From Piscinibacter sp. (GTDB lineage Bacteria > Pseudomonadota > Gammaproteobacteria > Burkholderiales > Burkholderiaceae_C), in the NCBI GenBank assembly GCA_019635485.1, contig JAHBZL010000028.1, positions 1 through 64,000 on the forward strand: a stretch of DNA of 64,000 nucleotides, given 5' to 3'. A program made the translations under genes and the position numbers. Positions 14,106 through 31,330 of this stretch are shown piece after piece. The notes under the pieces were generated by a model. The model was not told the DNA's origin and did not search any database. It saw only the letters and a list, made by a program, of their open reading frames with translations. The stretch's first letter is position 1, and each line of letters starts with the position of its first letter.

Positions 14106-14157
14106 TTATTGATTCAGATTGGCGATCGATAGACGCAATGTGGAACAATATTGATTC
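14106..14157. promoter_or_regulatory. Repeated TATTGATTC boxes in the LysR/pirin divergent region
   Basis: Two identical 9-mers TATTGATTC (14107-14115 and 14149-14157) lie exactly 42 bp apart, about four helical turns, in an AT-rich patch between the divergent membrane protein/pirin operon and the LysR gene. The spacing puts both on the same DNA face, as expected for a LysR-type tetramer. The second sits in an AACAATATTGATTC context with a partial dyad. Confidence 0.5.
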
Positions 14158-14176
14158 CTCTATGGAAGCAGTGGCG

Positions 14177-15136
14177 ATGCCGATGTCAACGAAGCGGCCG
14201 GGCCTGCCGGCAATGCAGGCCTTCCGCCGCGTGGTCGAGCTGCAGTCGTTCGGCGCCGCGGCCCGCAGCCTCGAGATCACCGGCGGGGCCGTCAGCAAGC
14301 TGGTGGCGCAACTCGAGCACGATCTCGGCGTGCGCCTGCTGCACCGCACGACGCGCAGCGTGAGCGTCAGCGCCGAGGGGCAGGCCTTCTATCGCGACGC
14401 CGTGCGCATCCTGGACGAGGTGGATGCGGCGGCCGAGGCGGTGCGCGGCGGTGCGGCCGTCGTCGGCGGGCGCCTGCGGGTCTCGCTGCCGACGTCCTTC
14501 GCGCTCGCGTGGCTCGCGGCCCGCTTGCCGGCCTTCATGCGCGCCCATCCGCACATCGAGCTGGACCTGGCGTTGAACGACCGCTACGTCGACATCGTGC
14601 ACGAGGGCTTCGACTGCGCGATCCGCATCGCCACGGCGCTGCCCGATTCCACCCTCGTGGCGCGCCGCCTGGGCGTGGTGCAGCGGGTGCTCGTCGCCGC
14701 GCCGTCGTACCTGGACGCGGCGCCGCCGCTCGCCGGGCCGCGTGATCTCGACATGCACGCCTGCCTCGTGTATTCGCAGGACGGCGGCCCGGTCGAGTGG
14801 CCGCTGAAGGGCGCGCCGCCGCTGCGCACGCGCGGCTGCTGCCGCGTCGACAACAGCATCATGCTGCGCGAGATGCTGCTCGCGGGCCTGGGCCTGACGC
14901 TGACGCCGGACTTCGTGGTCGGCGACTTGCTGGCCTCCGGCCGGCTGGTGGAGTTGCTGCCGGCGTGCCGGCCGCCGCCGCAGGTCGTGTTCGGGGTGGT
15001 CGCGAGCACGCGGCACGTGCCGCGGAAAGTGGCGGCGTTCCTGGATTTCATCGGCGGGCACCTGCAGCCGCCGCACGGTTCGACGAGCACCTCGGGCCGG
15101 GGCAAGAGGGCGCGTGACGCGAAGCCGGCCGGCTGA
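14177..15136 (+). CDS. LysR-family transcriptional regulator
   Basis: A 319-residue LysR protein. The winged HTH (MQAFRRVVELQSFGAAARSL, then LEHDLGVRLLHRTTRSV) is at residues 10-70, followed by the two-lobed effector domain (LRVSLPTSFALAWLA). ATG 14177 fits family N-termini and has a weak GGAAG; earlier ATGs at 14138 and 14162 fall inside the putative operator. It is divergent from the membrane protein/pirin operon, its likely target. Confidence 0.9.
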   Translation: MPMSTKRPGLPAMQAFRRVVELQSFGAAARSLEITGGAVSKLVAQLEHDLGVRLLHRTTRSVSVSAEGQAFYRDAVRILDEVDAAAEAVRGGAAVVGGRLRVSLPTSFALAWLAARLPAFMRAHPHIELDLALNDRYVDIVHEGFDCAIRIATALPDSTLVARRLGVVQRVLVAAPSYLDAAPPLAGPRDLDMHACLVYSQDGGPVEWPLKGAPPLRTRGCCRVDNSIMLREMLLAGLGLTLTPDFVVGDLLASGRLVELLPACRPPPQVVFGVVASTRHVPRKVAAFLDFIGGHLQPPHGSTSTSGRGKRARDAKPAG

Positions 15137-16339: not shown

Positions 16340-16477
16340 TCAGCCGCCCGTCGGCTTCACGAACACGTCGATGCCCTCGCCGGTTTCGAGCAGCGACTTG
16401 AGGCTGGACAGCACGATCGGCCAGCCCAGCCGGATGCCCTTGTCCATCCCGCTGCCGGCCTCGGTCTCGGGCTTGAC
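16340..16477 (-). pseudogene. 3' remnant of an SRPBCC (AHSA1-like) gene
   Basis: The last 45 codons (GSGMDKGIRLGWPIVLSSLK and LLETG) match the C-terminus of SRPBCC-domain proteins often paired with VOC and GFA genes. Upstream the similarity stops exactly at the first palindrome of the following regulatory region, and the remaining 5' frame is Arg-rich and unlike the family. About 100 codons are missing. It marks the join between an ordinary operon and the unusual cluster to the right. Confidence 0.6.
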
Positions 16478-16534
16478 GCGAAGCCTGCTTCGCGTGCCGG
16501 GACCGTGCCGCGGCGCGATCCGAAGCACGCTTCG
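16476..16534 (+). promoter_or_regulatory. Twin palindromes, candidate sigma-54 activator binding sites
   Basis: Two perfect inverted repeats share the core CGAAGC-NN-GCTTCG: ACGCGAAGC/CT/GCTTCGCGT (16476-16495) and CGAAGC/AC/GCTTCG (16521-16534). Their centres are 42 bp apart (four turns) and lie about 100 and 142 bp upstream of the start point expected from the -24/-12 promoter. That is the usual placement of enhancer sites for sigma-54 activators. The activator encoded at 27070-28479 is the obvious candidate. Confidence 0.6.
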
Positions 16535-16601
16535 CGCGGCGCATCGCGCATGGACACGTGCGCCCCTCTGTCGCGCTCGTTGCGCCGCCGCCGGACGCAC
16601 C

Positions 16602-16617
16602 TGGCACAGCGCATGCA
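16602..16617 (+). promoter_or_regulatory. Sigma-54 (-24/-12) promoter
   Basis: TGGCAC (16602-16607) and TGCA (16614-16617) have the invariant GG and GC separated by exactly 10 nt, close to the RpoN consensus TGGCAC-N5-TTGC. The predicted start near 16628 leaves a 20-nt leader with CAGGAG before the ATG at 16648. It should drive the co-oriented block of nine genes. Confidence 0.7.
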
Positions 16618-16647
16618 ATTTGACGGGCAACCGAACAGGAGCCCGTC

Positions 16648-17334
16648 ATGCGGTCATCGCTGCTCGACTACGAGCCGGAGATCTATCACCTGCTGCCTGC
16701 GCCGGCGCTGTCGGCGCAGGCCGAGGAACTCGCCAGCGCCGCGGAGCTGCTCGAGCGGCTGGATCGATCGACGGCAGGTGTGGTCGACGAGGCCTACATC
16801 GTCGAGCTGATCGACAAGGCGGTGGCCGATGCGGCACCCGGCCGTCCGCGCCTGTCGCGGCCGACCGCCGGCGCGCTGGCGCACGTGCTGGGCGTGGCGG
16901 CGCAGCGCGTGCTGCGCCCCGGCCGTGCCGCGCGCATCGGCGCCATGGGGCGGCTGTTCGCGCTCGAGCTCGAGGGGCTGAGCCCCGAGGACCAGCTGTT
17001 CGAGGTGTCACGCCAGTTCGTGCGCCTGATCCGCGAATCCGCGCGGCGCGCGGTGCCGCTCGACGAGCGCCGCATGCGCCTGAACCTGCCGGCGGCCCGG
17101 ACCGCCGCGGCATCCGCCCTGGCGGCACGGCGTGCCGTGCACGCGGCCGCCGTCGAGCTCGCGCCGGGGCTCGTCTCGCTGGTCGCGACACCTCGCGGCC
17201 TCTCCTCCGCGTCGGCGTGGGCCTCCCCCGCGCAAGCCGCTTCCGCCGGGGGTGCGACTGCGTCGTCCTCCGTTCCACTGCGCCGCATCGACATCGCGAG
17301 TTCACGGCGCGTTCGATCCTTCGAAGGAGTCTGA
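16648..17334 (+). CDS. Cluster protein A, paralogue of the glycine-zipper family without the zipper
   Basis: A 228-residue unknown and the first gene after the sigma-54 promoter. Residues about 110-175 share a pattern with the next gene and with the 22634 gene: LELEGLSPEDQLFEVSRQFVR, an Ala-rich helix, then APGL. The N-terminal part has two acidic helices instead of a Glu/Phe-rich leader, and the Gly-rich core is missing. The C-terminal 50 residues are Ser/Ala-rich. There is no signal peptide. The next ATG follows after 1 nt, so the two are tightly coupled. Confidence 0.75.
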   Translation: MRSSLLDYEPEIYHLLPAPALSAQAEELASAAELLERLDRSTAGVVDEAYIVELIDKAVADAAPGRPRLSRPTAGALAHVLGVAAQRVLRPGRAARIGAMGRLFALELEGLSPEDQLFEVSRQFVRLIRESARRAVPLDERRMRLNLPAARTAAASALAARRAVHAAAVELAPGLVSLVATPRGLSSASAWASPAQAASAGGATASSSVPLRRIDIASSRRVRSFEGV

Positions 17335-17335
17335 C

Positions 17336-17992
17336 ATGCATGACATCGATCGCACCCAACTGGAATACGCCGGCGAGAGCCCGAGCTACGAGGACGAGTT
17401 CGAGTTCGAGGACGAGTTCAGCGCCGAGGGTGGCGTGCTGACCGAGGCCGACGAGTACGAACTCGCCACGGAACTGCTGGGCGTGGCGAGCGAGGAGGAG
17501 CTGGACCAGTTCCTCGGCGGGCTCATCAAGCGTGTGGCCGGTGCTGCCGGCAAGTTCATCCGCTCGCCGGTGGGCAAGGCGATCGGCGGGGCGCTGAAGG
17601 GCGTCGCGAAGAAGGCGCTGCCCCTGGCGGGGTCCGCGCTGGGCGGCGCGATCGGCGGGCCGCTGGGCGCGAAGATCGGCGGCGGCGTGGCCAAGGTCGC
17701 GGGCAAGGCGCTGGGCCTGGAGGCCGAGGCGCTGTCGCAGGAGGACCAGGAGTTCGAAGGCGCGCGCCAGTTCGTGCGCGTGGCTGCGAACACGGTCAAC
17801 AAGGCTGCGTCGGCGCCGGCGCATGCCGATCCGCGCGCGGTGGCGCAGATGGCCGCCACGCAGGCGGTGCGCCAGCTTGCGCCCGGGCTGCTGCGGGCCG
17901 ATGCCGCCGGTGCGATGCGCGGCATGGGCCGCGGCGCGGCCAGCGGCCGCTGGGTCCGCCGGGGCTCGTCCATCGTGATCATCGGGGCCTGA
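17336..17992 (+). CDS. Cluster protein B, acidic leader plus glycine-zipper protein
   Basis: A 218-residue unknown in three parts. Residues 1-45 are very acidic with Phe (DEFEFEDEF). Residues 50-62 (VASEEELDQFLGG) look like a double-glycine leader end: Ser at -11, Glu at -8, Leu at -7, a hydrophobic residue at -4, Gly-Gly. Residues 63-127 are a cationic Gly/Ala-rich zipper (IGGALKGVAKKA and SALGGAIGGPLG) able to insert in membranes. A helical domain follows, and the protein ends in GRWVRRGSSIVIIGA. The shape recalls bacteriocin precursors but is far longer, and no C39 transporter is nearby. SD GAAGGAG precedes the ATG. Confidence 0.8.
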   Translation: MHDIDRTQLEYAGESPSYEDEFEFEDEFSAEGGVLTEADEYELATELLGVASEEELDQFLGGLIKRVAGAAGKFIRSPVGKAIGGALKGVAKKALPLAGSALGGAIGGPLGAKIGGGVAKVAGKALGLEAEALSQEDQEFEGARQFVRVAANTVNKAASAPAHADPRAVAQMAATQAVRQLAPGLLRADAAGAMRGMGRGAASGRWVRRGSSIVIIGA

Positions 17993-18025
17993 CGACCGTC
18001 GGCCCACGTCACGCGCGGTCCTCCC

Positions 18026-19312
18026 ATGGCTCCCTTCGTCGCCTGGATGCTCGCCTGGGAAGCGCGCGCGCTGCGCACGCGGCTCGCGCGCCTGCGCCCC
18101 TTCGCGCTGATCGAGTCGATGCTGCCGGCGGCGGCGCTGCTGCCGCAGGCGCAGGTCGCGATCGAGCGCCACCTGGCGCTCGGACGGCACGACCTCGAGC
18201 GCGCGATCCGCGGCTTCATGACCTGGCTGCGCACCGGCGCGCGGATGGAGTCGGCCGAAGCGGCGCAACGCCGTTTCACGCAGCTGCGCCTGCGCTTCAA
18301 CGTCGCGCTAACGCAGTTCGATCTGTTCAGCGACGTGCTCACGCAGCGCAGCGAGAGCGAGTCCGGCGTGTGGTTGTCGGGGCTGGACGCGGCGGCCACC
18401 GATGCGCTGACGCTGACCGGCCGCTGGTACGTCGTGCCGCCCGTGGTGTGTTACTTGGACCGCGGCGCCGGCGCGGCGATCCGGCGCGCCCGCACGCGCC
18501 TGCCCGGCGGCGGCGAGAACCCGCTGGCGGTGATCCGCGTCCCGCGCGAGCGCATGGTCGGCAGCGGCATCGCGTCGTCGCTGGTCCACGAGGTGGGCCA
18601 CCAGGGCGCGGCGCTGCTGGACCTGGTCGCGTCCCTGCGGCCGACGCTGCAGGCGCTGCAGCGCGACCCCGACCCGGCGCAGCGCGAGGTCTGGCAGCTG
18701 TGGGAACGCTGGATCTCGGAGATCGTGGCCGACTTCTGGGCCGTCGCGCGGGTGGGCGTGGCGTCGACGCTCGGCCTGATCGCGGTGGTGAGCCTGCCGC
18801 GCGCGTTCGTGCTGCGCATCGACATCGGCGACCCGCATCCGTCGCCGTGGATCCGCGTCCTGCTCAGCTGCACGATCGGCAACACGCTCTATCCGCATCC
18901 GCAATGGGACCGCATCGCCGCGATGTGGGCCTCGTTCTATCCGCTGCAGGGCATCGATGCGGCGCGGCGCGACCTGCTCGATCGCCTGCGCGCGACCATG
19001 GGCACCTTCGTGTCGTTGCTCGCGAACCACCGTCCGCGCTCGCTGCGTGGCCGTTCGATGCGCGAGGTGCTGGCCGGCGCGGAGCGCACGCCGCACGCGC
19101 TGGGGGCGCAGTTCCGGGCGTGGCACGGCGACCCGGGCGCGCTCTACCGCGCGCCGCCGTCGATCGTGTTCGCCGCGTTCGGCCAGGCGCGCATGGACGG
19201 CCGCCTCAGCCCCGAAGACGAATCGGCCCTGCTGGCCAAGCTGCTCTCGCACTGGGCCCTGGCCGGCTCGCTGCGCGGCGCCGCCCGCTGCGCCGCGCTG
19301 CCGCGCACCTGA
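18026..19312 (+). CDS. Putative zinc metalloprotease (HEVGH)
   Basis: A 428-residue protein with the gluzincin motif HEVGH at residues 188-192 and a conserved-looking WISEIVADFWA helix at 229-239 that could supply the third ligand (Glu 232). There is no signal peptide; moderately hydrophobic helices flank the motif. The rest is helical and Arg-rich. No named family is recognised. Inside this operon it could process the glycine-zipper proteins (inference). Confidence 0.72.
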   Translation: MAPFVAWMLAWEARALRTRLARLRPFALIESMLPAAALLPQAQVAIERHLALGRHDLERAIRGFMTWLRTGARMESAEAAQRRFTQLRLRFNVALTQFDLFSDVLTQRSESESGVWLSGLDAAATDALTLTGRWYVVPPVVCYLDRGAGAAIRRARTRLPGGGENPLAVIRVPRERMVGSGIASSLVHEVGHQGAALLDLVASLRPTLQALQRDPDPAQREVWQLWERWISEIVADFWAVARVGVASTLGLIAVVSLPRAFVLRIDIGDPHPSPWIRVLLSCTIGNTLYPHPQWDRIAAMWASFYPLQGIDAARRDLLDRLRATMGTFVSLLANHRPRSLRGRSMREVLAGAERTPHALGAQFRAWHGDPGALYRAPPSIVFAAFGQARMDGRLSPEDESALLAKLLSHWALAGSLRGAARCAALPRT

Positions 19313-19378
19313 CGGATCCCGACACCGGCCGACCCACCGCCCGACCCAACCGATCGACTTGATGCCAAGGAGAACACG

Positions 19379-21466
19379 ATGGCTACCTCCAAGACCCCCA
19401 GCACCGCCCCGACGACGAACCCGTCGACGCTGCCGCAGCGTCCGGGCTCCATCACGGTGTCGGTGCTCGACAAGCTCAGCCGCCAGCCGATCAGCGACGC
19501 CTGGATCGGCCTGTTTAGGGCCACCGCCGGCACCCCGGGCAAGATGAAGGACCTGCCGGGCAAGCAGGCCCTGGTCGCGTCGGGTCGCACCGGCGGCAAC
19601 GGGCAGATCGAGTTCGACAACGTGCAGCCCGCCACCTACCTGGTCGGCTACGGGCACCATCCCGTCACCGATCCGGTGTCGACCACCGTCGACCCCGGCT
19701 GCAGCCACGCGGTGTGCCTCGAGGTCGCCGTCGAGGCCGGCTTCGACGTGGTGTTCAAGGGTGCCAACTGCGAGCCGCTGCCCTGCGAGCGGCCGCGGGT
19801 GGGTGACCAGGTCTTCGGTTCGGTGAGCTACCGCAACAGCCCGGACCCGAACGTGACGGTCGTGCCCCCGCCGGGCGCCCAGCCGCTGCGCAGCGATCCG
19901 CTGTCGTTCGCGCTGACGCTGCGCCACATGGGCCCGACGTCGATCGCCCCGCAGCTGCTGTTCGCGCCGCTGGGCGAGGTGGCGGCGCTGGGCGTGGAGA
20001 CGGGCCCGGCCGCGCTGGCGCTGGAGGCCTTCGCCGATGTCGACGAGCGGCCGACGCAGGCGATCAGCGGCGGCATCAATGTGTCGATGACCCGTACCGA
20101 GACCGAACCCACCGCGGACATGAAGCTGTGGGGGGCGATCAAGGCGAGCACCGAAGGCATGGCCTTCGACCGCTTCGACGCGTTCATGGACGAGCTGTTC
20201 TGCCATCCGTCGCAGGGCGGTGGCTTCGGCACCGAGAAGGCGCGCTTCGGCGAGCTGGTGAAGCGGCGCTTCCTGCCCTTCACCGACACCGATGCCTACC
20301 GGCTGCTGAAGGCCGCGACGGAGGCGTTCGTGATCGTCAACTGCGGCATCTTCCCGCTCGACGGCGAGACGCAGCCGGGCGACTTCCTCGCCTACCTCGA
20401 CCGCCGCGACCTGCCGCGCCCCGGCCGCACGCCGTACCTCGAGAACGTCGAGGGGCTGCGCATCCTGCCGTACCTGGCGATCATCCGGCGCAAGCTGCCC
20501 GACGTGCCGATCGCGCCGGCGCTCGAGCAGATCGGCGTCGACGACGCCAACCTCTGCGAAGCGTTCGTGCGCGGAAAGCTGCGCAATCCCTGCCTGCTCG
20601 AGCTGATCTGGTCGTACTGGCAGGAGGAAGGGATGCTGGTGCAGACGATGAACACGATCGCCCGGCGCTTCCAGAACCTGCGCGGCCTGCAGCAGCCCGA
20701 CCCGCTGGCCAACGTCGAGGTCAATCCGCTGCGGCCGCTGAACAACCTGCTGTGGGGCGTCATCCAGGACGAGCAGCACCGGCTCAGCGTGGCGCGGCGC
20801 AACGCCGAGTACGACCACCACTACGGGCTGCGCCTGGAGGGGCGGGCGGTGCAGGGCTTCCGCGGGGCCGACACGCGGTCCAAGTTCATCGAGGCCTTCC
20901 ACCACCTGCTGCGCCTGTGCACCGAGTTCTACAAGCAGGACGACGACACGACGGTGAAGGCCGACGCCTTCGGCGTGCTCAACGCGATCAAGGAGGTGCA
21001 CCTGATCCTGTCGCAGGGCGCGCACAGCCAGTTCGGCGACCTGCCCGCGACCGCGCGCACCGAGATGCTGATGCAGCAGTGGCTGCTGGCCCGCCCCGAG
21101 TTCCGCGAGTTCCTTCCGACGCGCGCGATGGTCGCGTACCCGGAGCCGTGGATGGACCGCGTCGACGCGATGAAGAAGCTGATGGGCTGGTCCGACACGA
21201 GCGTCGTCCACTTCCACAACCTGGCGGTGTTCGGCGAACAGGTGCTGCTGGCGATCCGCTACGGCGCGTGGAGCACGGTGTTCGAGCCGACGCAGGCCTT
21301 CAACTTCGCGCGCTTCTGGCGCCCGCAGATCCAGGGCTACATCCATGCCTACCGGGCCGCCACCGGTGTCGAACTGGGCGCCGCGGCGGTGACGCAGCAG
21401 GTCGACGCGACGCTGCCGTCGCTGCTGCTGCAACGCCGGCTGGCGTCGCAGCGGCGGAGTGCGTGA
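19379..21466 (+). CDS. Large cluster protein with N-terminal transthyretin-like domain
   Basis: A 695-residue unknown. After a Thr/Pro/Ser-rich start, residues about 20-110 form a carboxypeptidase-regulatory or SpaA-like beta-sandwich (SITVSVLDKLSRQPISDAWIG, then GQIEFDNVQPATYLVGY). Residues 120-230 look beta-rich. The remaining 450 residues are helical, with many aromatic residues (LIWSYWQEEGMLVQTMNTI, and HHYGLRLEGRAVQGF). There is no signal peptide and no catalytic motif I can name. Size and layout suggest a structural or carrier component. SD AAGGAG precedes the ATG. Confidence 0.75.
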   Translation: MATSKTPSTAPTTNPSTLPQRPGSITVSVLDKLSRQPISDAWIGLFRATAGTPGKMKDLPGKQALVASGRTGGNGQIEFDNVQPATYLVGYGHHPVTDPVSTTVDPGCSHAVCLEVAVEAGFDVVFKGANCEPLPCERPRVGDQVFGSVSYRNSPDPNVTVVPPPGAQPLRSDPLSFALTLRHMGPTSIAPQLLFAPLGEVAALGVETGPAALALEAFADVDERPTQAISGGINVSMTRTETEPTADMKLWGAIKASTEGMAFDRFDAFMDELFCHPSQGGGFGTEKARFGELVKRRFLPFTDTDAYRLLKAATEAFVIVNCGIFPLDGETQPGDFLAYLDRRDLPRPGRTPYLENVEGLRILPYLAIIRRKLPDVPIAPALEQIGVDDANLCEAFVRGKLRNPCLLELIWSYWQEEGMLVQTMNTIARRFQNLRGLQQPDPLANVEVNPLRPLNNLLWGVIQDEQHRLSVARRNAEYDHHYGLRLEGRAVQGFRGADTRSKFIEAFHHLLRLCTEFYKQDDDTTVKADAFGVLNAIKEVHLILSQGAHSQFGDLPATARTEMLMQQWLLARPEFREFLPTRAMVAYPEPWMDRVDAMKKLMGWSDTSVVHFHNLAVFGEQVLLAIRYGAWSTVFEPTQAFNFARFWRPQIQGYIHAYRAATGVELGAAAVTQQVDATLPSLLLQRRLASQRRSA

Positions 21467-21503
21467 TGGACGAGAGGCTCGAGGCTCCGGGGTCGCGCGC
21501 GCC

Positions 21504-22637
21504 ATGCACGGCATCGACTTCTCGTCCTCGCTGTACCTCGGGTTCGAGCACGGCAGTGACGAACTCGCGCCGTGGAAGCGCCTCACGCTCGGCCGGCCCG
21601 TGGCGCTGCGCGAATTCGACGCGGCGCGCCTGGTCGCCGGGCAACTGGCGGCGCTCACCGGCAGCGCGGCGGGCTGCCTGCTGCCGTCCACGCTGCACCT
21701 GTTCTGGGACCTGCTGGGGTTCCTGAGCCGCCAGACCGCGATCGAGATCCTCATGGACGCCGCGAGCTACCCGATCCTGCACTGGTGCGCCGAACACTGG
21801 GCGTCGCGCGGCGTGCCGCTGCGCCGCTTCGCGGCCGGCGACGACGCCGCGCTCGGCCGAGCGCTGGCTTGTGTTGCGCGGCGGGCTCGCCCGGTGGTGC
21901 TGTGCGACGGCTTCGTGCCCTGCGCCGAGCGCCAGCCGCCCCTGGCGCGCTACGCGGCGCTGGCCGCGGCGCGCGGCGGCTGGCTGGTGCTCGACGATAC
22001 GCAGGCGCTGGGCGTGCGGGGGCGGCGCGCCGGATCCGCCGCCGGCGACGGGTCGGCCGCCGCACCGTACGGCCGCGGCGGCGGCGGATCGCTGCCGTAC
22101 CACGATCTCGCCGGCGACCACGTCGTCGTCGGGGCATCGCTGGCCAAGGCCTTCGGCGTGCCCGTGGCGCTGCTGGCCGGCAGCGTGCCGCTGGTGGAGG
22201 CCTTCGAGGCCGCGAGCGCCACCCGCGAGCACACGAGCCCGCCGTCGATCGCGGTGGTGCGCGCGGCGCAGCACGCGCTCGAGCTCAACGATCGCGTCGG
22301 CGAGGCCCGGCGGCAGCGCCTGTGGCACCTGGTGCGGCGCCTGCGCGCGCGTTCGGCGGCCATCGGCCGCCCGCTGCGCGGCGGCGACTTCCCCGTGCAG
22401 TGCCTGCCGATGGCTGCCGGCGAGGACGTGCGCCTGATCCACCGCCGCCTGCGCGAGCGCGGCGTGTTCGTGGTGCCGACGCGGCCGCGGTTCTCGGCCG
22501 ACGACGAGCGCCGGGCACGCCTTGCGCTGGTCGTCAACGCCACGCACCGGGCGGCCGACATCGACCGCGCGGTCGAGGCCATCGATGGCGTCCTGTCCAG
22601 CGCGCCCCGCCGGGCGCCAATGGAGGCTGCACCATGA
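21504..22637 (+). CDS. PLP-dependent enzyme of the 8-amino-7-oxononanoate synthase type
   Basis: A 377-residue fold-type I PLP enzyme. The cofactor Asp sits in LVLDDTQALGVRG (about residues 163-172) and the Schiff-base Lys in GASLAKAFGVP (Lys 215), the pattern of alpha-oxoamine synthases (AONS, KBL, ALAS). An inserted Gly-rich loop (YGRGGGGSLPY) lies just before the Lys segment. Relatives condense an amino acid with an acyl-CoA or acyl carrier. No biotin or haem genes are near. The start is uncertain: GTG 21459 overlaps the previous gene, ATG 21504 has a weak ribosome site. Confidence 0.75.
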   Translation: MHGIDFSSSLYLGFEHGSDELAPWKRLTLGRPVALREFDAARLVAGQLAALTGSAAGCLLPSTLHLFWDLLGFLSRQTAIEILMDAASYPILHWCAEHWASRGVPLRRFAAGDDAALGRALACVARRARPVVLCDGFVPCAERQPPLARYAALAAARGGWLVLDDTQALGVRGRRAGSAAGDGSAAAPYGRGGGGSLPYHDLAGDHVVVGASLAKAFGVPVALLAGSVPLVEAFEAASATREHTSPPSIAVVRAAQHALELNDRVGEARRQRLWHLVRRLRARSAAIGRPLRGGDFPVQCLPMAAGEDVRLIHRRLRERGVFVVPTRPRFSADDERRARLALVVNATHRAADIDRAVEAIDGVLSSAPRRAPMEAAP

Positions 22638-23848
22638 GCATCAGCGCTGCCCTGGCGATCGTGAACCCGATCGCCGCCCGCGTGATCGGCAGCGGCCCCA
22701 CGCCGTTTGCGTCGATCGGGACGCTGGGCAACGCCCAGGTTCGCATTGCCGCACAGATGAATGCCAACCCGAAGCTGGTCGATCGCGGCCTGTACGTGAT
22801 CGTGTCGGCGGACGGGCAGAGCTTCTACCACGGCAAGGGCGACGGGCTGACCAAGCGGCTGGGCGAACACCGCGGCTGTGCCGAGCGCCTGGGCTACAAG
22901 CCCCACAGCCATGCCGTCGCGGTCTGGTTCGCGCCGTCGGCATCGACCAACGTGCGTGCGCTCGAGCGCGACATCAACGAGCAGCTGCTGAGGCGCAACC
23001 GCGGCCTGCCGCGCGGCAGCGGATTGCGCGCGACGAACAAGGTCCGCGAGTTCGAAACACCCGACACCCTGGGTGCCGCCGTCGCGGCGCCCGCCCTTCT
23101 GGAGGACTCCACCATGCATGCGATGACCTGTTCCTGCCGCCGCTGCCGCCAGGCCGGCGAAGTCGAAGTGCTTGCGTTCGGGGACCAGCGCGAGTTCGAG
23201 GACGCATCCGAGTTCCAGTCGGAGTTCGAGTTCGAGTCCGAGTTCGAAGGCGAGTTCGAAGGCGAAGGCGAGGCGATGGACGACGCGCGCGAATACGAGC
23301 TGGCGCTCGAACTGCTGTCGGTGTCGAACGAGGAGGAACTCGAGCAGTTCCTCGGCAAGCTCGTCAGCGGCGCGTGGAAGGGCCTGAAGAAGGTCGGATC
23401 GGCGGTCGGCAAGGTGGTCAAGCCGCTGGGTGGCGTGTTGCGCACCGTGGCGAAGACGGCACTGCCCTTGGTCGGCGGCGCGCTCGGATCGTTCATCCCG
23501 ATCCCGGGCGTCGGCACGCTGGTCGGCCGCGCGGTCGGGCAGGCCGTCAGTTCGGCGCTCGAGGCCGAAACCGCCGGGCTCGATCCGGAAGTGCGCGATC
23601 TCGAGATGGCGCGCCGTTTCGTGCGCATCGCCGACACGGCAGCGCGCCGGGCCGTGACGTCGGTGGCCCGGGGCGCCGAGCCGATGCGCGCGGTGCAGCA
23701 GGCCGTGGCCGCAGCGACGCACCGGCATGCGCCGGGCCGGCTGACCGCGGGAGGGCCGGCGCTGCCCGGTCGCCCCGCGCCGGCGGGCGGCCGCATGCCG
23801 CAGCGCTGGGTGCGGCGCGGCAACACGATCGTCGTCCACGACGTCTGA
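22634..23848 (+). CDS. GIY-YIG-like domain joined in frame to glycine-zipper cluster protein C
   Basis: From ATG 22634 (GGAGG upstream, ATGA overlap with the previous gene) 404 codons stay open. Residues 50-125 resemble a GIY-YIG fold (GLYVIVSADGQSFYHGKG, then LTKRLGEHRG). At Met 161 (ATG 23114) a strong GGAGGA lies 7 nt upstream, and from there the product looks like a second complete member of the acidic/zipper family. It has a CSCRRC motif, a Glu/Phe-rich stretch, SNEEELEQFLGK at 231-242, a Gly-zipper with Pro, an AVQQAVAAATHRHAPG helix and a C-terminal QRWVRRGNTIVVHDV. So this is either one fused protein or two in-frame products. Confidence 0.75.
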   Translation: MSISAALAIVNPIAARVIGSGPTPFASIGTLGNAQVRIAAQMNANPKLVDRGLYVIVSADGQSFYHGKGDGLTKRLGEHRGCAERLGYKPHSHAVAVWFAPSASTNVRALERDINEQLLRRNRGLPRGSGLRATNKVREFETPDTLGAAVAAPALLEDSTMHAMTCSCRRCRQAGEVEVLAFGDQREFEDASEFQSEFEFESEFEGEFEGEGEAMDDAREYELALELLSVSNEEELEQFLGKLVSGAWKGLKKVGSAVGKVVKPLGGVLRTVAKTALPLVGGALGSFIPIPGVGTLVGRAVGQAVSSALEAETAGLDPEVRDLEMARRFVRIADTAARRAVTSVARGAEPMRAVQQAVAAATHRHAPGRLTAGGPALPGRPAPAGGRMPQRWVRRGNTIVVHDV

Positions 23849-23881
23849 GGGTCGGTGCACGGCCTCCCATGGAGATCCACC

Positions 23882-25252
23882 ATGGACCAGGAAGACTTCT
23901 TCGCGACCCCGGACCGACGCGATGTCGACGCGTTCGAGGACGGCGGGTCGGAGTTCGAGCGGGGCCGCTTCGGCGGCTACGGCGCGCGTGGCGGAACCCC
24001 GATGCGGCGGTCGCCCGCGCGCCCGGTCTCGCGTGGGGCCGCGCCGATGCGGCCAAGGCCGGGCCAGCGCCCGCCGCGGCCGCGTCCCCCGCGCCCGGGA
24101 TGGCCGCACCCCGGCGTCACGGTGGCGGGGGGCTGGCCGCCGTGGCCGGGACCGGCCGAGCCCCGCGGTGACGAGCCTCCGGAGGCGCCGAGCGAGTTCG
24201 TGCGCTGGGTGCAGAGCGCCCTCAACCGCGTCGAAGGGCTGCGCCTGCCGGTGACCGGCGTGATGGACGCCGCGGCGCGCAGCGCGCTGCGGCGCTTCCA
24301 GCGCGGCGCCGGCCTGCCGGTCGACGGGGTTGCGGGTCCCGACACGGTGGAGGCGCTGCGGCGCGGATCGCGAGGGTCGGCCGCGGCCCGCCGCGGCGGC
24401 GTGCAGCGCGAGGCGGTGGGGGCGGCCCCATCGGCGACCTACGGTCCTGCGCTGCCGCCACCCGACCGCGCGAGCCGCGCCTACGGGGCGTGGCTGCAGG
24501 CCGCGCTCAACGCGGCGCTCGGGCTGCGCCTCGGCACCGACGGCATCATCGGGCCGCTCACGCGCTCGGCGATCCGCGACTTCCAGGCGCGCCAGGGATT
24601 CGTGCCCAGCGGCGTGCCGGACGACGCGGTCGACGCCGCACTGATGCGCGGCGGCGCGAGCGCGCCGCCGCGTGCCGGAACGGCCCCGGCGGCGGCGCCA
24701 GTGCCGGCGGGCCGCAGCGGGCCGATCGGCACGCGCTTCATCTCGATCGCTTCGCGCGCCCTGCTCACGCCGCCGATCGAGGCGGCCGCGAAGGCACTCG
24801 ACGCGCACTTCGAGCGCGCGGGCATGGCGGTCACGCTCACGTCGGCGCTGCGGCCGCCGCAGGACCAGCTGCGCCTGATCCGCGACCAGGCGATCAAGCG
24901 CGGCATCGATCGCCAGTACCCGTCCATCCACACGGCCACGGTCGAGAACGTCGACAGCTGGCTCGGCGCCTGGGACGAACTGCTGCACACGCACAAGTAC
25001 GTCATCAACCCGCCGGTCGCGGCGACCAGCCGACTCACCGGCAAGCGCTACAGCCCGTCGCCGCACACCACCGGGTTCGCCTTCGACCTGTCCGGCAGCG
25101 ACCTCGACCGCATCGCCGCGGTCGTGTCCGGCTACTGCCGCGAGGGCGGCGCGGTGCGCCAGATCCTGATCGAGCGGCGCAACAACGCCGTGCACGTCGG
25201 GCTGGATGCGAGCGGGCGCAGCGGCAGCTGCGCGGTCTCGGTCAGCAACTGA
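23882..25252 (+). CDS. Protein with two peptidoglycan-binding domains and an M15-like peptidase domain
   Basis: A 456-residue protein. It begins with an acidic stretch like the zipper proteins (MDQEDFFATPD) and an Arg/Pro-rich linker (residues 35-100), then two PG_binding_1-like repeats at about 105-160 (VQSALNRVEGLRLPVTGVMD, RRFQRGAGLPVDG) and 200-250 (LQAALNAALGLRLGTDGIIG). The C-terminal part has SALRPPQDQLRLI, SPHTTGFAFDLSG and NNAVHVGL, the H..D....H pattern of D-Ala-D-Ala carboxypeptidase/VanY-type M15 enzymes. No signal peptide is seen, odd for a wall enzyme; export by the system itself is possible. Confidence 0.8.
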   Translation: MDQEDFFATPDRRDVDAFEDGGSEFERGRFGGYGARGGTPMRRSPARPVSRGAAPMRPRPGQRPPRPRPPRPGWPHPGVTVAGGWPPWPGPAEPRGDEPPEAPSEFVRWVQSALNRVEGLRLPVTGVMDAAARSALRRFQRGAGLPVDGVAGPDTVEALRRGSRGSAAARRGGVQREAVGAAPSATYGPALPPPDRASRAYGAWLQAALNAALGLRLGTDGIIGPLTRSAIRDFQARQGFVPSGVPDDAVDAALMRGGASAPPRAGTAPAAAPVPAGRSGPIGTRFISIASRALLTPPIEAAAKALDAHFERAGMAVTLTSALRPPQDQLRLIRDQAIKRGIDRQYPSIHTATVENVDSWLGAWDELLHTHKYVINPPVAATSRLTGKRYSPSPHTTGFAFDLSGSDLDRIAAVVSGYCREGGAVRQILIERRNNAVHVGLDASGRSGSCAVSVSN

Positions 25253-25268
25253 CGAGGCGTGAGGCACC

Positions 25269-26312
25269 ATGTTCACGACCGAATCCACCAGGGCCTTCGA
25301 GGCACCGGCGCTCGGCGTGGCAACGCCGCCGCTGCCGACGCCGCGTCAATACCTGTGCTGGGTGCAGCGCTCCCTGTCCCGCCAGGGCTGGGCCACGCCG
25401 ATCGACGGTTCCGATTCGCCACGCTACCGCGAGGCCGTGCGCCGATTCCAGCGCGAGCACATGGCCGTGGCGGCACCCAGCGGCACGGTCGAGCCCGCGA
25501 CGCAGGATGCGCTGATCCGCCTGAACCACGTCCATCCCGACTACACCGCGTGGACGCAGGGCGCGCTGGTGAAGGAGGGCCTGCTGTCCGCCGCGGCCGT
25601 GCGCGCCGAGCCGATCATGGAGCGCACGACCTCGGCCACGCAGCGTGCGCTGCGCAAGCTGCAGGGCCGGGTCGGCCTCGTGCCCAACGGCTGGGTCGGA
25701 TCGAAGACCGAACTGGTGCTGATGCGGCTGGCGGCCGGGAGTCCTCCCGGCGCCGATGGCCGGCCGCAGGCCTGCCACGGCGTCGCGCCGCCGCCGAGGA
25801 AACCGGACGATGACAAACGGCTGATCCAGCTGCTGCGCGAAGTCGACGTGAAGGGCCTGGTGAGCGACACCTTCCTGCGCGACGAGGTGACGTGTCTGAA
25901 GAGCTTCCTGCTGGGCGCCCTGGCGGGCGCCCGCGTGGACGACCGCTACTGGCAGTTCACGCCGTTCGACGCCTTGGGCCGCGAGCGGGCCTGCGACTAC
26001 CGCTTCGAGGTGCTGAGCGCCCGGCGGCACACCCGCCCGCAGCATGCCCTCGAGAACTTCCGCCACTGCGCCGGGCGCGCCAGCGAGGTCGGCGAGGTGT
26101 CGCGCTGCCTGCTGCAGGTCCACCGCGCGATCCGCTGCCACCTCAACGCGCTGAAGAACGTGCTGACGCATCAGGCCGCGAACGTCTCGATCCGCGACTG
26201 GACCGAATGCGCATGGATGCTCGAGCTGCGTGCCGCGAGCCAACGCAAGTCGCCGCCGAGCGTGTACCGGTGCTTCGGCAGGTTCCTGCGCAACGCGTCG
26301 TCGTCGTGCTGA
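25269..26312 (+). CDS. Protein with peptidoglycan-binding-like N-terminus
   Basis: A 347-residue protein. Residues 25-150 contain two degenerate PG_binding_1-like units (CWVQRSLSRQGWATPIDG, YREAVRRFQREHM; later TSATQRALRKLQGRVGLVP NGW). The C-terminal 170 residues are a helical domain rich in Cys, Arg and His (LENFRHCAGRASEVGEVSRC) that I do not recognise. No signal peptide. It begins 16 nt after the M15-like gene. Confidence 0.7.
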   Translation: MFTTESTRAFEAPALGVATPPLPTPRQYLCWVQRSLSRQGWATPIDGSDSPRYREAVRRFQREHMAVAAPSGTVEPATQDALIRLNHVHPDYTAWTQGALVKEGLLSAAAVRAEPIMERTTSATQRALRKLQGRVGLVPNGWVGSKTELVLMRLAAGSPPGADGRPQACHGVAPPPRKPDDDKRLIQLLREVDVKGLVSDTFLRDEVTCLKSFLLGALAGARVDDRYWQFTPFDALGRERACDYRFEVLSARRHTRPQHALENFRHCAGRASEVGEVSRCLLQVHRAIRCHLNALKNVLTHQAANVSIRDWTECAWMLELRAASQRKSPPSVYRCFGRFLRNASSSC

Positions 26313-26357
26313 CGGGTGGCGACGACGGCACGGCGGCCGCAACCGGGGGGACGCATC

Positions 26358-27128
26358 GTGATCGTCGACTGCCACTGCCATGCCGGCCACGGCGACGGCT
26401 TGACCGGCCCGTGGGACACCGAAGCGCCGATCTCGCGCTACCTGCAACGCTGCGCGCGCGCGGGCATCGGGCGCAGCGTGGTCTTCGCGGCCTTCCACAG
26501 CGACTACCGGCGCGCCAATGCGGAGGTGGCGACGCTGGTGGCGAGCCGTCCCGACCGCCTGCTGGGCTTCGCCTTCGTGCATGCCGAACGCGATCGCCTG
26601 CGCATGCGCGACCTCGTGCGCGAGGCGGTCGAGGTGCACGGCTTCGTCGGCCTCAAGGTGCACCGCCACGACGCGCGCATCACGCGCGAGGTCATCGAGG
26701 CGGCGCGCGAGTTCGGCCTGCCGGTGCTCTACGACATCGCCGGTGAGTCCGCCAGCGTGGAGCTCTTCGCGTCGCAATACCGCGACGTGAATTTCATCGT
26801 CCCGCATCTCGGCAGCTTCGCCGACGACTGGGCGGCGCAGCTCGCCTTCATCGACCAGTTGCAGCGGCATCCGAACGTCTACACCGACAGCGCCGGCGTG
26901 CGCCGCTTCGACCTGCTCGAACAGGCGCTGGCGCGTGCCGGGGCGCACAAGCTGCTGTTCGGCTCCGACGGGCCCTGGCTGCATCCGGAAGTGGAGCTGC
27001 ACAAGCTGCGTCTGCTCGGCCTGTCCGCGGCGCAGCAGCAGCAGGTGCTCGGCGGAAACCTGCTGCGGCTCATCGCGCGGGTGCGTCGCCCCCGGGCACG
27101 GCGCCGGCGCCTTGGCCTTGTCGCCTGA
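26358..27128 (+). CDS. Amidohydrolase-family protein
   Basis: A 256-residue TIM-barrel amidohydrolase_2 type protein. Metal ligands are visible: DCHCH at residues 4-8, GLKVHRHD near 97, IVPHLGSF near 148 and LFGSDGPW near 197. GTG 26358 is chosen because family members begin with a strand into DCHxH; GTG 26316 would add 14 residues. The C-terminus is unusually Arg-rich. It ends 59 nt inside the convergent activator gene. Substrate is unknown. Confidence 0.78.
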   Translation: MIVDCHCHAGHGDGLTGPWDTEAPISRYLQRCARAGIGRSVVFAAFHSDYRRANAEVATLVASRPDRLLGFAFVHAERDRLRMRDLVREAVEVHGFVGLKVHRHDARITREVIEAAREFGLPVLYDIAGESASVELFASQYRDVNFIVPHLGSFADDWAAQLAFIDQLQRHPNVYTDSAGVRRFDLLEQALARAGAHKLLFGSDGPWLHPEVELHKLRLLGLSAAQQQQVLGGNLLRLIARVRRPRARRRRLGLVA

Positions 27129-28479
27129 GCTGCAGCGCGCGATCCGACACCTGCAGCCGCTCGGCGGCGCGATGCAGGTTGTGGCCCTCGCGTTCGAGCG
27201 CCAGCTGCACCGCGAGGTCCTTGGCGGCGTTGCCGATCTCGTTCAGTCCGATCCCCAGTTCGACCGCCTGGCCGACCGCGGCCTGGAAGGCGGGGTCGGG
27301 CCAGCGGGCGCCGAGCGTGGCGCCCGGGCGCTCCTCGAGGGGGACGTCGCCCACGGTCAGCGGGCCGGGACCGCTGTGACGGTGCCACAGGCGCAGCACC
27401 AGCTGGCGCAGCTGGCGCACGTTGCCCGGGTAGTCGCGCGTCAGCAGCAGCTCGCGGACCGGCGGCGCGATGTCGACTTCGGGTTCGGCATCGCCGGACT
27501 CGCCGTCGCATCGGGCCTGGCGCAGGAAGAACTGCGCCAGTGGCAGGATATCTTCGCGTCGTTCGCGCAGCGGCGGGGCCGTGCACGGCCAGCCGGCGAT
27601 GCGGTGGTAGAGGTCGGCGCGGAAGCGGCCCTCGGCGACGGCGGCGTCGAGGTCGCGGTGCGTCGCGCACACGAGGCGGAAGTCGCTGTCCTGCCAGCTG
27701 TTGCCGCCCAGTCGCTTGTATTGCCTTTCCTGCAGCACGCGCAGCAACTGCGCTTGCAGCGGCAACGGCAGCTCGCCGATCTCGTCGAGGAAGAGCGTGC
27801 CCCGGTGCGCGAGCGCGAAGGCGCCTTCCCGCGGCGCGACGGCGCCGGTGAAGGCGCCGCGCTCGTGGCCGAACAGCTCGCTGCCGGACAGTTCGGGGGC
27901 GAGCGTCGTGCAGTCGACGACGACGAAGCGGCCGCTCGCCGCGCGCTCGCCCAGGTCGTGGACCAGCCGGGCGAGCTGCTCCTTGCCGGTGCCGGTCTCG
28001 CCGTGGATCAGCACCGGGACCGACGTGAAGCAGGCCGCCTCGATCACGCTGCGCAGCACGCTCCGCCACGCCGGGCTGTGCCCCGCCACGCTGGCGCATA
28101 CCCGATCACCGGCCAGCAGTGATTCGACGACGGCGTGCCGCCGCATGCGATGCGCGAGGTCCTCGGCGTCATCGGGCACCTCGGGCCAGACGAGCACGTC
28201 CGAAGCGCCGGCGGCCAGCAGCGCCCAGGAGCCGTCCGCGTCGCGCGCCTTCGGCCCGAAGGCCACGGCAATCGTCTGTGTTCCGTCACCGTCGTGCCGG
28301 CGCAGCGCATCGACGGCGGCGCGGACGTTGCCGGCGTCGAAGACGATCACCCGCGCGCGCGCGGCCGGGCCCGCGTCCCCGGCGGGCCGGGACGACACCC
28401 CGGCCTGTTCGAGCAGACGGCGCAGGCGATCACGCGACGCCTCCGCAATCGCGCCGTGGAACTGCAGCAGGACGGACAT
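27070..28479 (-). CDS. Sigma-54-dependent transcriptional activator
   Basis: A 469-residue bacterial enhancer-binding protein. Residues 1-130 form a degenerate receiver-like domain. The AAA+ core has Walker A GETGTGKE (about 158), GAFTGA (about 208, the sigma-54 contact loop), Walker B TLFLDEIGELP and the arginine-finger region RFRADLYHR. The C-terminus is a Fis-type HTH (NLHRAAERLQVSDRALQ, about 430-450). It converges with and overlaps the last gene of the cluster. With the -24/-12 promoter and twin palindromes at the other end, it is the probable cluster activator. Confidence 0.92.
   Translation of the reverse strand: MSVLLQFHGAIAEASRDRLRRLLEQAGVSSRPAGDAGPAARARVIVFDAGNVRAAVDALRRHDGDGTQTIAVAFGPKARDADGSWALLAAGASDVLVWPEVPDDAEDLAHRMRRHAVVESLLAGDRVCASVAGHSPAWRSVLRSVIEAACFTSVPVLIHGETGTGKEQLARLVHDLGERAASGRFVVVDCTTLAPELSGSELFGHERGAFTGAVAPREGAFALAHRGTLFLDEIGELPLPLQAQLLRVLQERQYKRLGGNSWQDSDFRLVCATHRDLDAAVAEGRFRADLYHRIAGWPCTAPPLRERREDILPLAQFFLRQARCDGESGDAEPEVDIAPPVRELLLTRDYPGNVRQLRQLVLRLWHRHSGPGPLTVGDVPLEERPGATLGARWPDPAFQAAVGQAVELGIGLNEIGNAAKDLAVQLALEREGHNLHRAAERLQVSDRALQLRRQGQGAGAVPGGDAPAR

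Positions 28480-28651: not shown

Positions 28652-31326
<2,675 letters not shown>

Positions 31327-31330
<4 letters not shown>

Follow-up and report, generated by a model that had tools for sequence, protein, structure and literature searches.

What holds together a block of genes whose products do not add up to a familiar pathway, and what might such a block do? The question is raised by a 64,000-nucleotide stretch of DNA from Piscinibacter sp. (Burkholderiales; NCBI GenBank assembly GCA_019635485.1, contig JAHBZL010000028.1, positions 1 to 64,000 of the forward strand), the whole of which is called the window here. Nine genes of the window, A to I, lie on the forward strand behind a putative sigma-54 promoter and run towards a convergent gene, J, for a sigma-54 activator. 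Comparison with related loci shows that the gene set, its order, the promoter, the enhancer pair, the variable cargo and the catalytic motifs recur, and a core operon behind a sigma-54-type promoter with an enhancer pair is well supported by these sequences. For the function, we tentatively prefer, at chances a little short of even, a sigma-54-switched core with exchangeable lytic cargo that resembles polymorphic effectors; its lytic or antagonistic action is what we infer. The elements concerned are as follows.

16479-16492, no strand: enhancer half 1, CGAA-N6-TTCG palindrome, CGAAGCCTGCTTCG; the pair is kept in related loci
16521-16534, no strand: enhancer half 2, CGAA-N6-TTCG palindrome, CGAAGCACGCTTCG; starts 42 bp downstream of half 1
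16602-16617, + strand: putative sigma-54 promoter, TGGCAC-N5-ATGCA, TGGCACAGCGCATGCA; 10 of 11 -24/-12 consensus positions
16648-17334, + strand: A, small acidic protein, distant relative of B (profile match to B, E 7e-8)
17336-17992, + strand: B, core gene; acidic N-terminus, glycine-zipper core and conserved C-terminal GRWxRxGxxI (comparison across loci)
18026-19312, + strand: C, core gene; zincin-like, HEVGH and ExxAD (motifs, structure model)
19379-21466, + strand: D, core gene, 695 amino acids; beta-sandwich of the CnaB/transthyretin kind and a conserved helical part
21459-22637, + strand: E, BioF-like pyridoxal phosphate enzyme of the alpha-oxoamine synthase kind (family match, Schiff-base lysine motif)
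22634-23848, + strand: F, GIY-YIG-like domain fused to an acidic glycine-zipper protein (home-made model; without a Pfam match)
23882-25252, + strand: G, two peptidoglycan-binding domains (Pfam) and an M15/VanY-like region below cut-off
25269-26312, + strand: H, peptidoglycan-binding protein (Pfam) whose C-terminal part differs from that of G
26316-27128, + strand: I, amidohydrolase-2 family enzyme (family match)
27070-28479, - strand: J, sigma-54 activator with GAFTGA and a weak Fis-type helix-turn-helix (Sigma54_activat, E 1.7e-57)

The first-pass annotation, made from the letters of the window, had described nine co-oriented genes between a -24/-12 promoter with two palindromes and a convergent sigma-54 activator gene, and all of these are present where it placed them. 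The gaps are 1 nt (A-B), 33 (B-C), 66 (C-D), -8 (D-E), -4 (E-F), 33 (F-G), 16 (G-H) and 3 (H-I); because they range only from -8 to +66 nt, the nine genes form one block that reads as a single transcription unit. J overlaps the end of I by 59 nt.

Does this gene set exist elsewhere? In a scan of genome contigs with D, 97 stretches encode a relative, of which 80 were kept; with L002, from the same genus, and the window itself they make 82 loci (L001, a copy of the window, is excluded from the counts). B, C, D, E, I and J are all present in 56 of the 82, the window counted, with J on the opposite strand after I, and in every one of the 82 those members of B-C-D-E-I that are present keep the same order. 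In other words, the genes co-occur; scattered homologues, which would have refuted the first-pass annotation, are not what the comparison shows. Of the 26 loci that lack one or more of the six genes, 16 break off no more than 5.5 kb from D on one side or both, and L077 is ambiguous. The core arrangement with its enhancer pair was also found in genomes G336 and G111 with the C profile, in G001 (a complete genome of the window's genus) with D, and on an Ensifer plasmid (L094) with tblastn. The locus of G001 has no E match, and that of G111 runs enhancer - B - C - D - amidase - trypsin-like protease - J, with no E or I match; by this comparison the constant part is therefore B, C, D and J, with the exception of L075. 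That locus (Methylococcaceae) has B-C-D-E and the enhancer pair, with no I or J match in the 10 kb downstream of D.

According to the labels of the records, many of which are bins, the hosts include Oxalobacteraceae, Comamonadaceae, Nitrosomonas, Accumulibacter, methanotrophs, Microvirga, Nitrospira, Acidobacteria, Chloroflexi, Myxococcus, Rokubacteria, Schekmanbacteria and Calditrichia. The best full-length identity to the D of the window, 61%, is found in Accumulibacter. A tree of 76 C proteins carries eight phylum labels and places Variovorax at two separate positions, and because of these two features it suggests, without proving, horizontal transfer of the operon. Four plasmids were matched by D; the Ensifer plasmid carries A to E, two cargo genes, I, J and the enhancer pair. 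The distribution is patchy: D occurs in one of seven other genomes of the window's genus, and a C match in five of 369 genomes sampled from the class. The B family lies in the operon cluster in 14 of 14 genomes, with one weak match elsewhere, in G438 (E 1e-3).

The control region is conserved along with the genes. A -24/-12 site with at least nine of 11 consensus positions stands in the 900 nt upstream of 63 of 71 loci, against an expectation of 0.14 per 930 nt. The palindrome pair, at a spacing of 41-43 bp, precedes the genes in 66 of the 72 loci with 400 nt or more of upstream sequence; the spacing is 42 bp in 57 of these 66, 41 bp in seven and 43 bp in two. Twenty mononucleotide shuffles of the 72 upstream regions gave no pair at all, and just five pairs of palindromes no more than 120 bp apart occur elsewhere in 1.53 Mb, of which only the one in L073 has a matching spacing; it fronts a further acidic gene of that cluster. 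Measured from the start of the second palindrome, the -24 element follows at 44-48 or 55-59 bp in 46 of the 67 loci with the pair, two classes that differ by one helical turn; the distance is 68-170 bp in 20, and one has no promoter site. The exact pair is missing from seven of 74 loci that have B. Some of these start too near the cluster, and L047 has a one-mismatch site at the correct spacing.

In whole genomes the pair is nearly confined to the operon. It occurs in 14 of 16 carrier genomes, in 13 as a single copy at the operon and in one as two copies that each lie in the cluster; an exact pair is missing from G429 and G438, and a reversed-pattern control gave no match in the 16. The window's own genome (5.0 Mb, 84% complete) has the pair just once. 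In the 369-genome class sample the pair was found in six genomes, three of them carriers of C and three (G204, G122 and G084) without a C match; the reversed control matched one genome (G360). Three of the five C-positive genomes of this sample, the window's own included, have the pair; of the other two, G233 has its C at the start of a contig, and the C match of G360 is no more than a distant paralogue. The partner sigma factor is encoded in the window's genome (rpoN, PF04552, E 1e-64). An exact GAFTGA is present in 61 of 67 J proteins, including that of the window, and the six without it are two fragments and four full-length proteins; the N-terminal part of J has no Pfam receiver match. J would be the protein that binds the palindrome pair.

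Which proteins make up the core? Three related acidic proteins had been noticed in the window. B and F, each with a glycine zipper, bear this out, whereas A is related to B over profile positions 123-195 only (E 7e-8). B has 11 GxxxG motifs against a shuffle mean of 4.4, no strongly hydrophobic segment (highest 19-residue mean, 1.17), and no hit better than E 0.2 in a sequence-profile search of the PDB. C had been called a protease-like protein for its HEVGH motif, and this holds across loci: HE[VIA]GH is kept in 78 of 78 C proteins and ExxAD in 68 of 78, and in a structure model with a predicted local distance difference test score (pLDDT) of 86.5 the two motifs lie inside predicted helices (180-197 and 230-243). 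No convincing family was found for C in Pfam, NCBIfam, PADLOC or PHROGs, no PDB sequence-profile match, and no match among 50,697 phage records at E 1e-5; single-member Pfam matches, such as TssG at E 0.002, were taken as chance. M48-type zinc proteases are the nearest likeness, by the HExxH and ExxAD motifs in the predicted helices, but the M48 Pfam profile is absent among the families found at E up to 0.05 for 37 C members. A distant relative of C, about 29% identical and with HESGH, is encoded in G360 (L095 7954-9237, - strand); no core neighbours stand within the 12 kb taken there, and it may mark a second use of this zincin family.

D begins with a beta-sandwich region of the CnaB/transthyretin kind, approximately residues 20-225, which probably forms two domains. 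Across loci this region is variable and the helical part that follows is conserved; D carries conserved E, H and D residues, which might possibly belong to an enzyme. The helical part has no family in Pfam, NCBIfam, PADLOC or PHROGs, and D has no PDB sequence-profile match. As far as sequence comparison reaches, the libraries searched contain no described relative of C, of the helical part of D or of the A/B/F family.

In the 56 complete loci a zone of 0.7-6.1 kb separates E from I, and its contents vary. We took 109 cargo open reading frames (ORFs) from loci with both E and I, 51 of 60 such loci yielding at least one; nine zones gave none because of the way ORFs were chosen, and the set is incomplete in other zones too (F of the window, for example, was missed). 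For family searches, 32 glycine-zipper ORFs were left out, and 43 representatives were used, that is, 44 minus the fragments from L032 and L047 plus F of the window. Pfam finds PG_binding_1 in 15 of the 43, Amidase_2 in six, M20 in three, OmpA in two, and Muramidase, VanY, NlpC/P60, trypsin and GIY-YIG in one each, with a few further marginal families. A frequent order places a GIY-YIG and/or an amidase or peptidoglycan-binding protein first, followed by a second glycine-zipper protein and finally by a variable one. A crude signal-peptide score is positive for only one of the 109 cargo ORFs and for six of 82 D proteins.

The cargo of the window itself needs some correction. A GIY-YIG-like domain and a third acidic protein had been listed as separate proteins; both are present, but within a single open frame of 404 codons, F. 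Position 23114 is a possible internal start with a good ribosome-binding site, and initiation there would possibly make the glycine-zipper part of F alone. The GIY-YIG-like domain is found by a home-made model in 42 of 67 loci with D and J (F of the window, E 1.5e-13), a model built from 17 of the same cargo proteins, so that its seeds match by construction. What we take to be its active-site residues, Y, Y, R, N and mostly E, are aligned. G and H are the two peptidoglycan-binding proteins that had been expected, although the M15/VanY-like part of G remains below Pfam cut-offs; both have endolysin matches in PHROGs, and relatives of H occur in L051, L063 and L073. In five loci, L010, L037, L063, L070 and L073 (Nitrospira, Nitrosomonas and others), genes for M20-family peptidases stand directly before the amidohydrolase.

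How freely is this cargo exchanged? A counterpart was defined as a match over at least 60% of the length in the zone DNA of another locus, since a count between called ORFs misses genes. By identity of the C proteins, counterparts were found in 214 of 218 cargo comparisons at 90% or more, 60 of 144 at 80-90%, 639 of 1102 at 70-80%, 859 of 3575 at 60-70% and 4 of 304 at 50-60%; between called ORFs the figures were 189 of 205 (at least 90%), 53 of 141 (80-90%) and 436 of 863 (70-80%). The low figure at 80-90% comes from 31 locus pairs; most of those listed are from Nitrosomonas and Variovorax, where one locus has trypsin-like, M20, M15 or OmpA-like genes that its partner lacks.

As for the two remaining enzymes, the catalytic motifs are kept in E (Schiff-base lysine motif in 74 of 75) and in most I proteins, and I is 62-76% identical to that of the window in the loci where tblastn found it. 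Upstream of the block, at 14138-15136 (+ strand), is an ordinary LysR-family regulator, and adjoining J, at 28652-31330 (- strand), is a serine/threonine protein kinase with TPR repeats. Two ARAGORN predictions, tRNA-Ser at 28802-28887 (+ strand) and tRNA-Gly at 29507-29606 (- strand), both fall within this kinase gene and are in all likelihood spurious.

How might these parts work together? J would bind the two CGAA-N6-TTCG sites 42 bp apart and open one RpoN promoter of what is presumably a horizontally spread operon. The acidic glycine-zipper proteins A, B and F, the zincin-like C, D, and usually E and I would then be made, together with exchangeable wall-binding, wall-cutting, nuclease-like and protease cargo, mostly without signal peptides. 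The acidic and aromatic N-termini of the cargo may gather it, with the glycine-zipper proteins, on D; joint assembly is suggested by the sharing of such N-termini. The motif F[EDN]xx[PE][FL] occurs in the first 45 residues of 10 of 33 non-redundant cargo proteins, compared with 0.62 in shuffles (maximum 4 of 500) and two of 216 later segments. Processing of the assembled proteins is suggested by the presence of C, and action on a membrane by the glycine-zipper proteins. The lytic cargo would finally reach a cell envelope, probably that of a competitor, and its content suggests an attack on peptidoglycan, perhaps also on DNA and protein. The binding by J, the assembly on D, the processing, the membrane action, the delivery and the target are thus steps that we infer. 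Delivery to other cells would best explain both the exchange of cargo and the spread between lineages. A further claim, possible but more doubtful than the general reading, is that the glycine-zipper proteins, the zincin, the CnaB/helical protein and the N-terminally tagged, leaderless cargo form a new sigma-54-fired apparatus for delivery or lysis that has no kinship with the numbered secretion systems or with contractile injection machines.

Several observations weigh against this scheme of switched core and delivered cargo. No transporter or secretion component was recognised in A to J or in the 43 cargo proteins, and no immunity candidate in the cargo zones, where novel immunity proteins or small ORFs would escape. 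The proposed scaffold is poorly modelled in its helical part (AlphaFold pLDDT mostly below 50 at residues 276-590). The Pfam signal for GIY-YIG is weak, with one match in the 43 cargo proteins (E 7e-4) and none for F of the window. Cargo counterparts are not lost evenly with C distance, so that the case for exchange depends on certain genera, Nitrosomonas and Variovorax among them. The N-terminal motif was chosen after inspection of the same proteins; its occurrence in an M20 peptidase, counted among the ten, is probably accidental, and G and H of the window lack it. It is hard to see what E, I and the M20 enzymes would do in a toxin system. Finally, nine loci with at least 9 kb downstream of D are still without E and/or I (L007, L021, L026, L059, L072, L074, L078, L080 and L075), L059 lacking both and L075 lacking J as well. 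The first-pass annotation had spoken of a secreted or self-assembling antagonistic or envelope-remodelling system. This agrees with the exchange of cargo, the content of peptidoglycan hydrolases and the shared N-termini, but no export machine or immunity gene was recognised.

The apparent lack of export and immunity genes would be accounted for if the target were the producer itself, with holin-like glycine-zipper proteins letting leaderless wall hydrolases, nuclease and proteases act from within. Hydrolases mostly without signal peptides beside small glycine-rich proteins do fit holin-endolysin logic, and a sigma-54 promoter permits a tight switch. Nevertheless, such programmed lysis would need neither a shared N-terminal motif and acidic tails nor a large conserved D and metabolic enzymes, and strongly hydrophobic segments are lacking in B; we regard this reading as unlikely. 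Equally unlikely in our judgement is envelope remodelling, in which the operon would build or rebuild a wall-associated layer from the pilin-like domains of D and the peptidoglycan-binding and OmpA-like cargo while hydrolases open the wall. It explains the pilin-like domains of D, yet the rarity of signal peptides by the crude score means that most of these proteins would need a non-Sec route, trypsin-like and GIY-YIG-like cargo fit poorly, and it is the beta-sandwich part of D that varies and the helical part that is conserved.

Two other readings have much smaller chances. The patchy spread with signs of transfer, and the nuclease-like, membrane and protease modules, would suit abortive infection with swappable effectors. 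We consider such anti-phage defence very improbable, however: PADLOC matched nothing but the AAA part of J, which is generic, and, marginally, F (PDC-M09B, E 0.02), none of it convincing beyond that generic part, and all modules, including several wall hydrolases together, stand in one operon under one switch. Slighter still is the chance that E and I make a small molecule to which the wall proteins are accessory. Their conserved catalytic motifs and the high identity of I speak for a specialised metabolism, but E is absent from the G001 locus, and both enzymes from G111 and L059, while in G001 and G111 B, C, D, J and the enhancer pair stay. An accessory of the type VI secretion system (T6SS) or of another contractile injection machine was set aside. 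T6SS-type sheath genes occur in 10 of 16 carrier genomes and phage-type ones in 11 of 16, but both families are absent from G438 and from G001, a complete genome that carries the operon. The window's genome has a T6SS sheath gene (G000:C23), on a contig other than that of the operon.

A complete, self-switched operon in genomes labelled with eight phyla, encoding proteins without a known family, is a sizeable gap in annotation; no description of the gene set stands among the titles and abstract openings listed in literature searches, which did not cover subscription papers. If cargo is indeed delivered, this would be a route that needs neither the T6SS nor contractile machines, and if instead the producer is lysed, it would be a lysis programme under a bacterial sigma-54 switch. 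Since a single activator and a single enhancer pair seem to govern the whole operon, its function is directly testable through J.

How does the operon compare with systems already known? Peptidoglycan hydrolases, nuclease-like proteins and proteases are kinds of cargo that it has in common with polymorphic toxin systems. The likeness extends to conserved shared parts combined with exchangeable effector domains (Zhang et al. 2012, PMC3482391). The effectors here are, however, whole proteins beside a core of unknown family under one sigma-54 switch, and no known trafficking domain or adjacent immunity gene was recognised. Because immunity and trafficking features were not found, we compare the operon with polymorphic effector systems for the way its cargo is exchanged, without classing it among them. 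With the glycine-zipper bacteriocin CDZ of Caulobacter (PMC5380434) it shares glycine-zipper proteins that may be directed against other cells. Among A to J, however, neither a transporter nor an immunity gene was recognised. CDZ reportedly has type I secretion genes beside its bacteriocin genes, and no such transporter stands in A to J or the cargo; from what is said of CDZ, the proteins here also differ in being acidic and accompanied by hydrolases and a conserved core. Phage holin-endolysin cassettes are similar in their mostly leaderless peptidoglycan hydrolases, as the PHROGs endolysin matches of G and H indicate, and different in that the operon has a dedicated bacterial sigma-54 activator and a C without a match in phage records. 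A close parallel for the switch is offered by the operons of NtrC-family enhancer-binding proteins, which likewise combine a GAFTGA activator, paired upstream palindromes and a -24/-12 promoter; the difference is that, of the 14 carrier genomes with the enhancer pair described here, 13 have it at this operon only, and that pair and gene set turn up together in several phyla.

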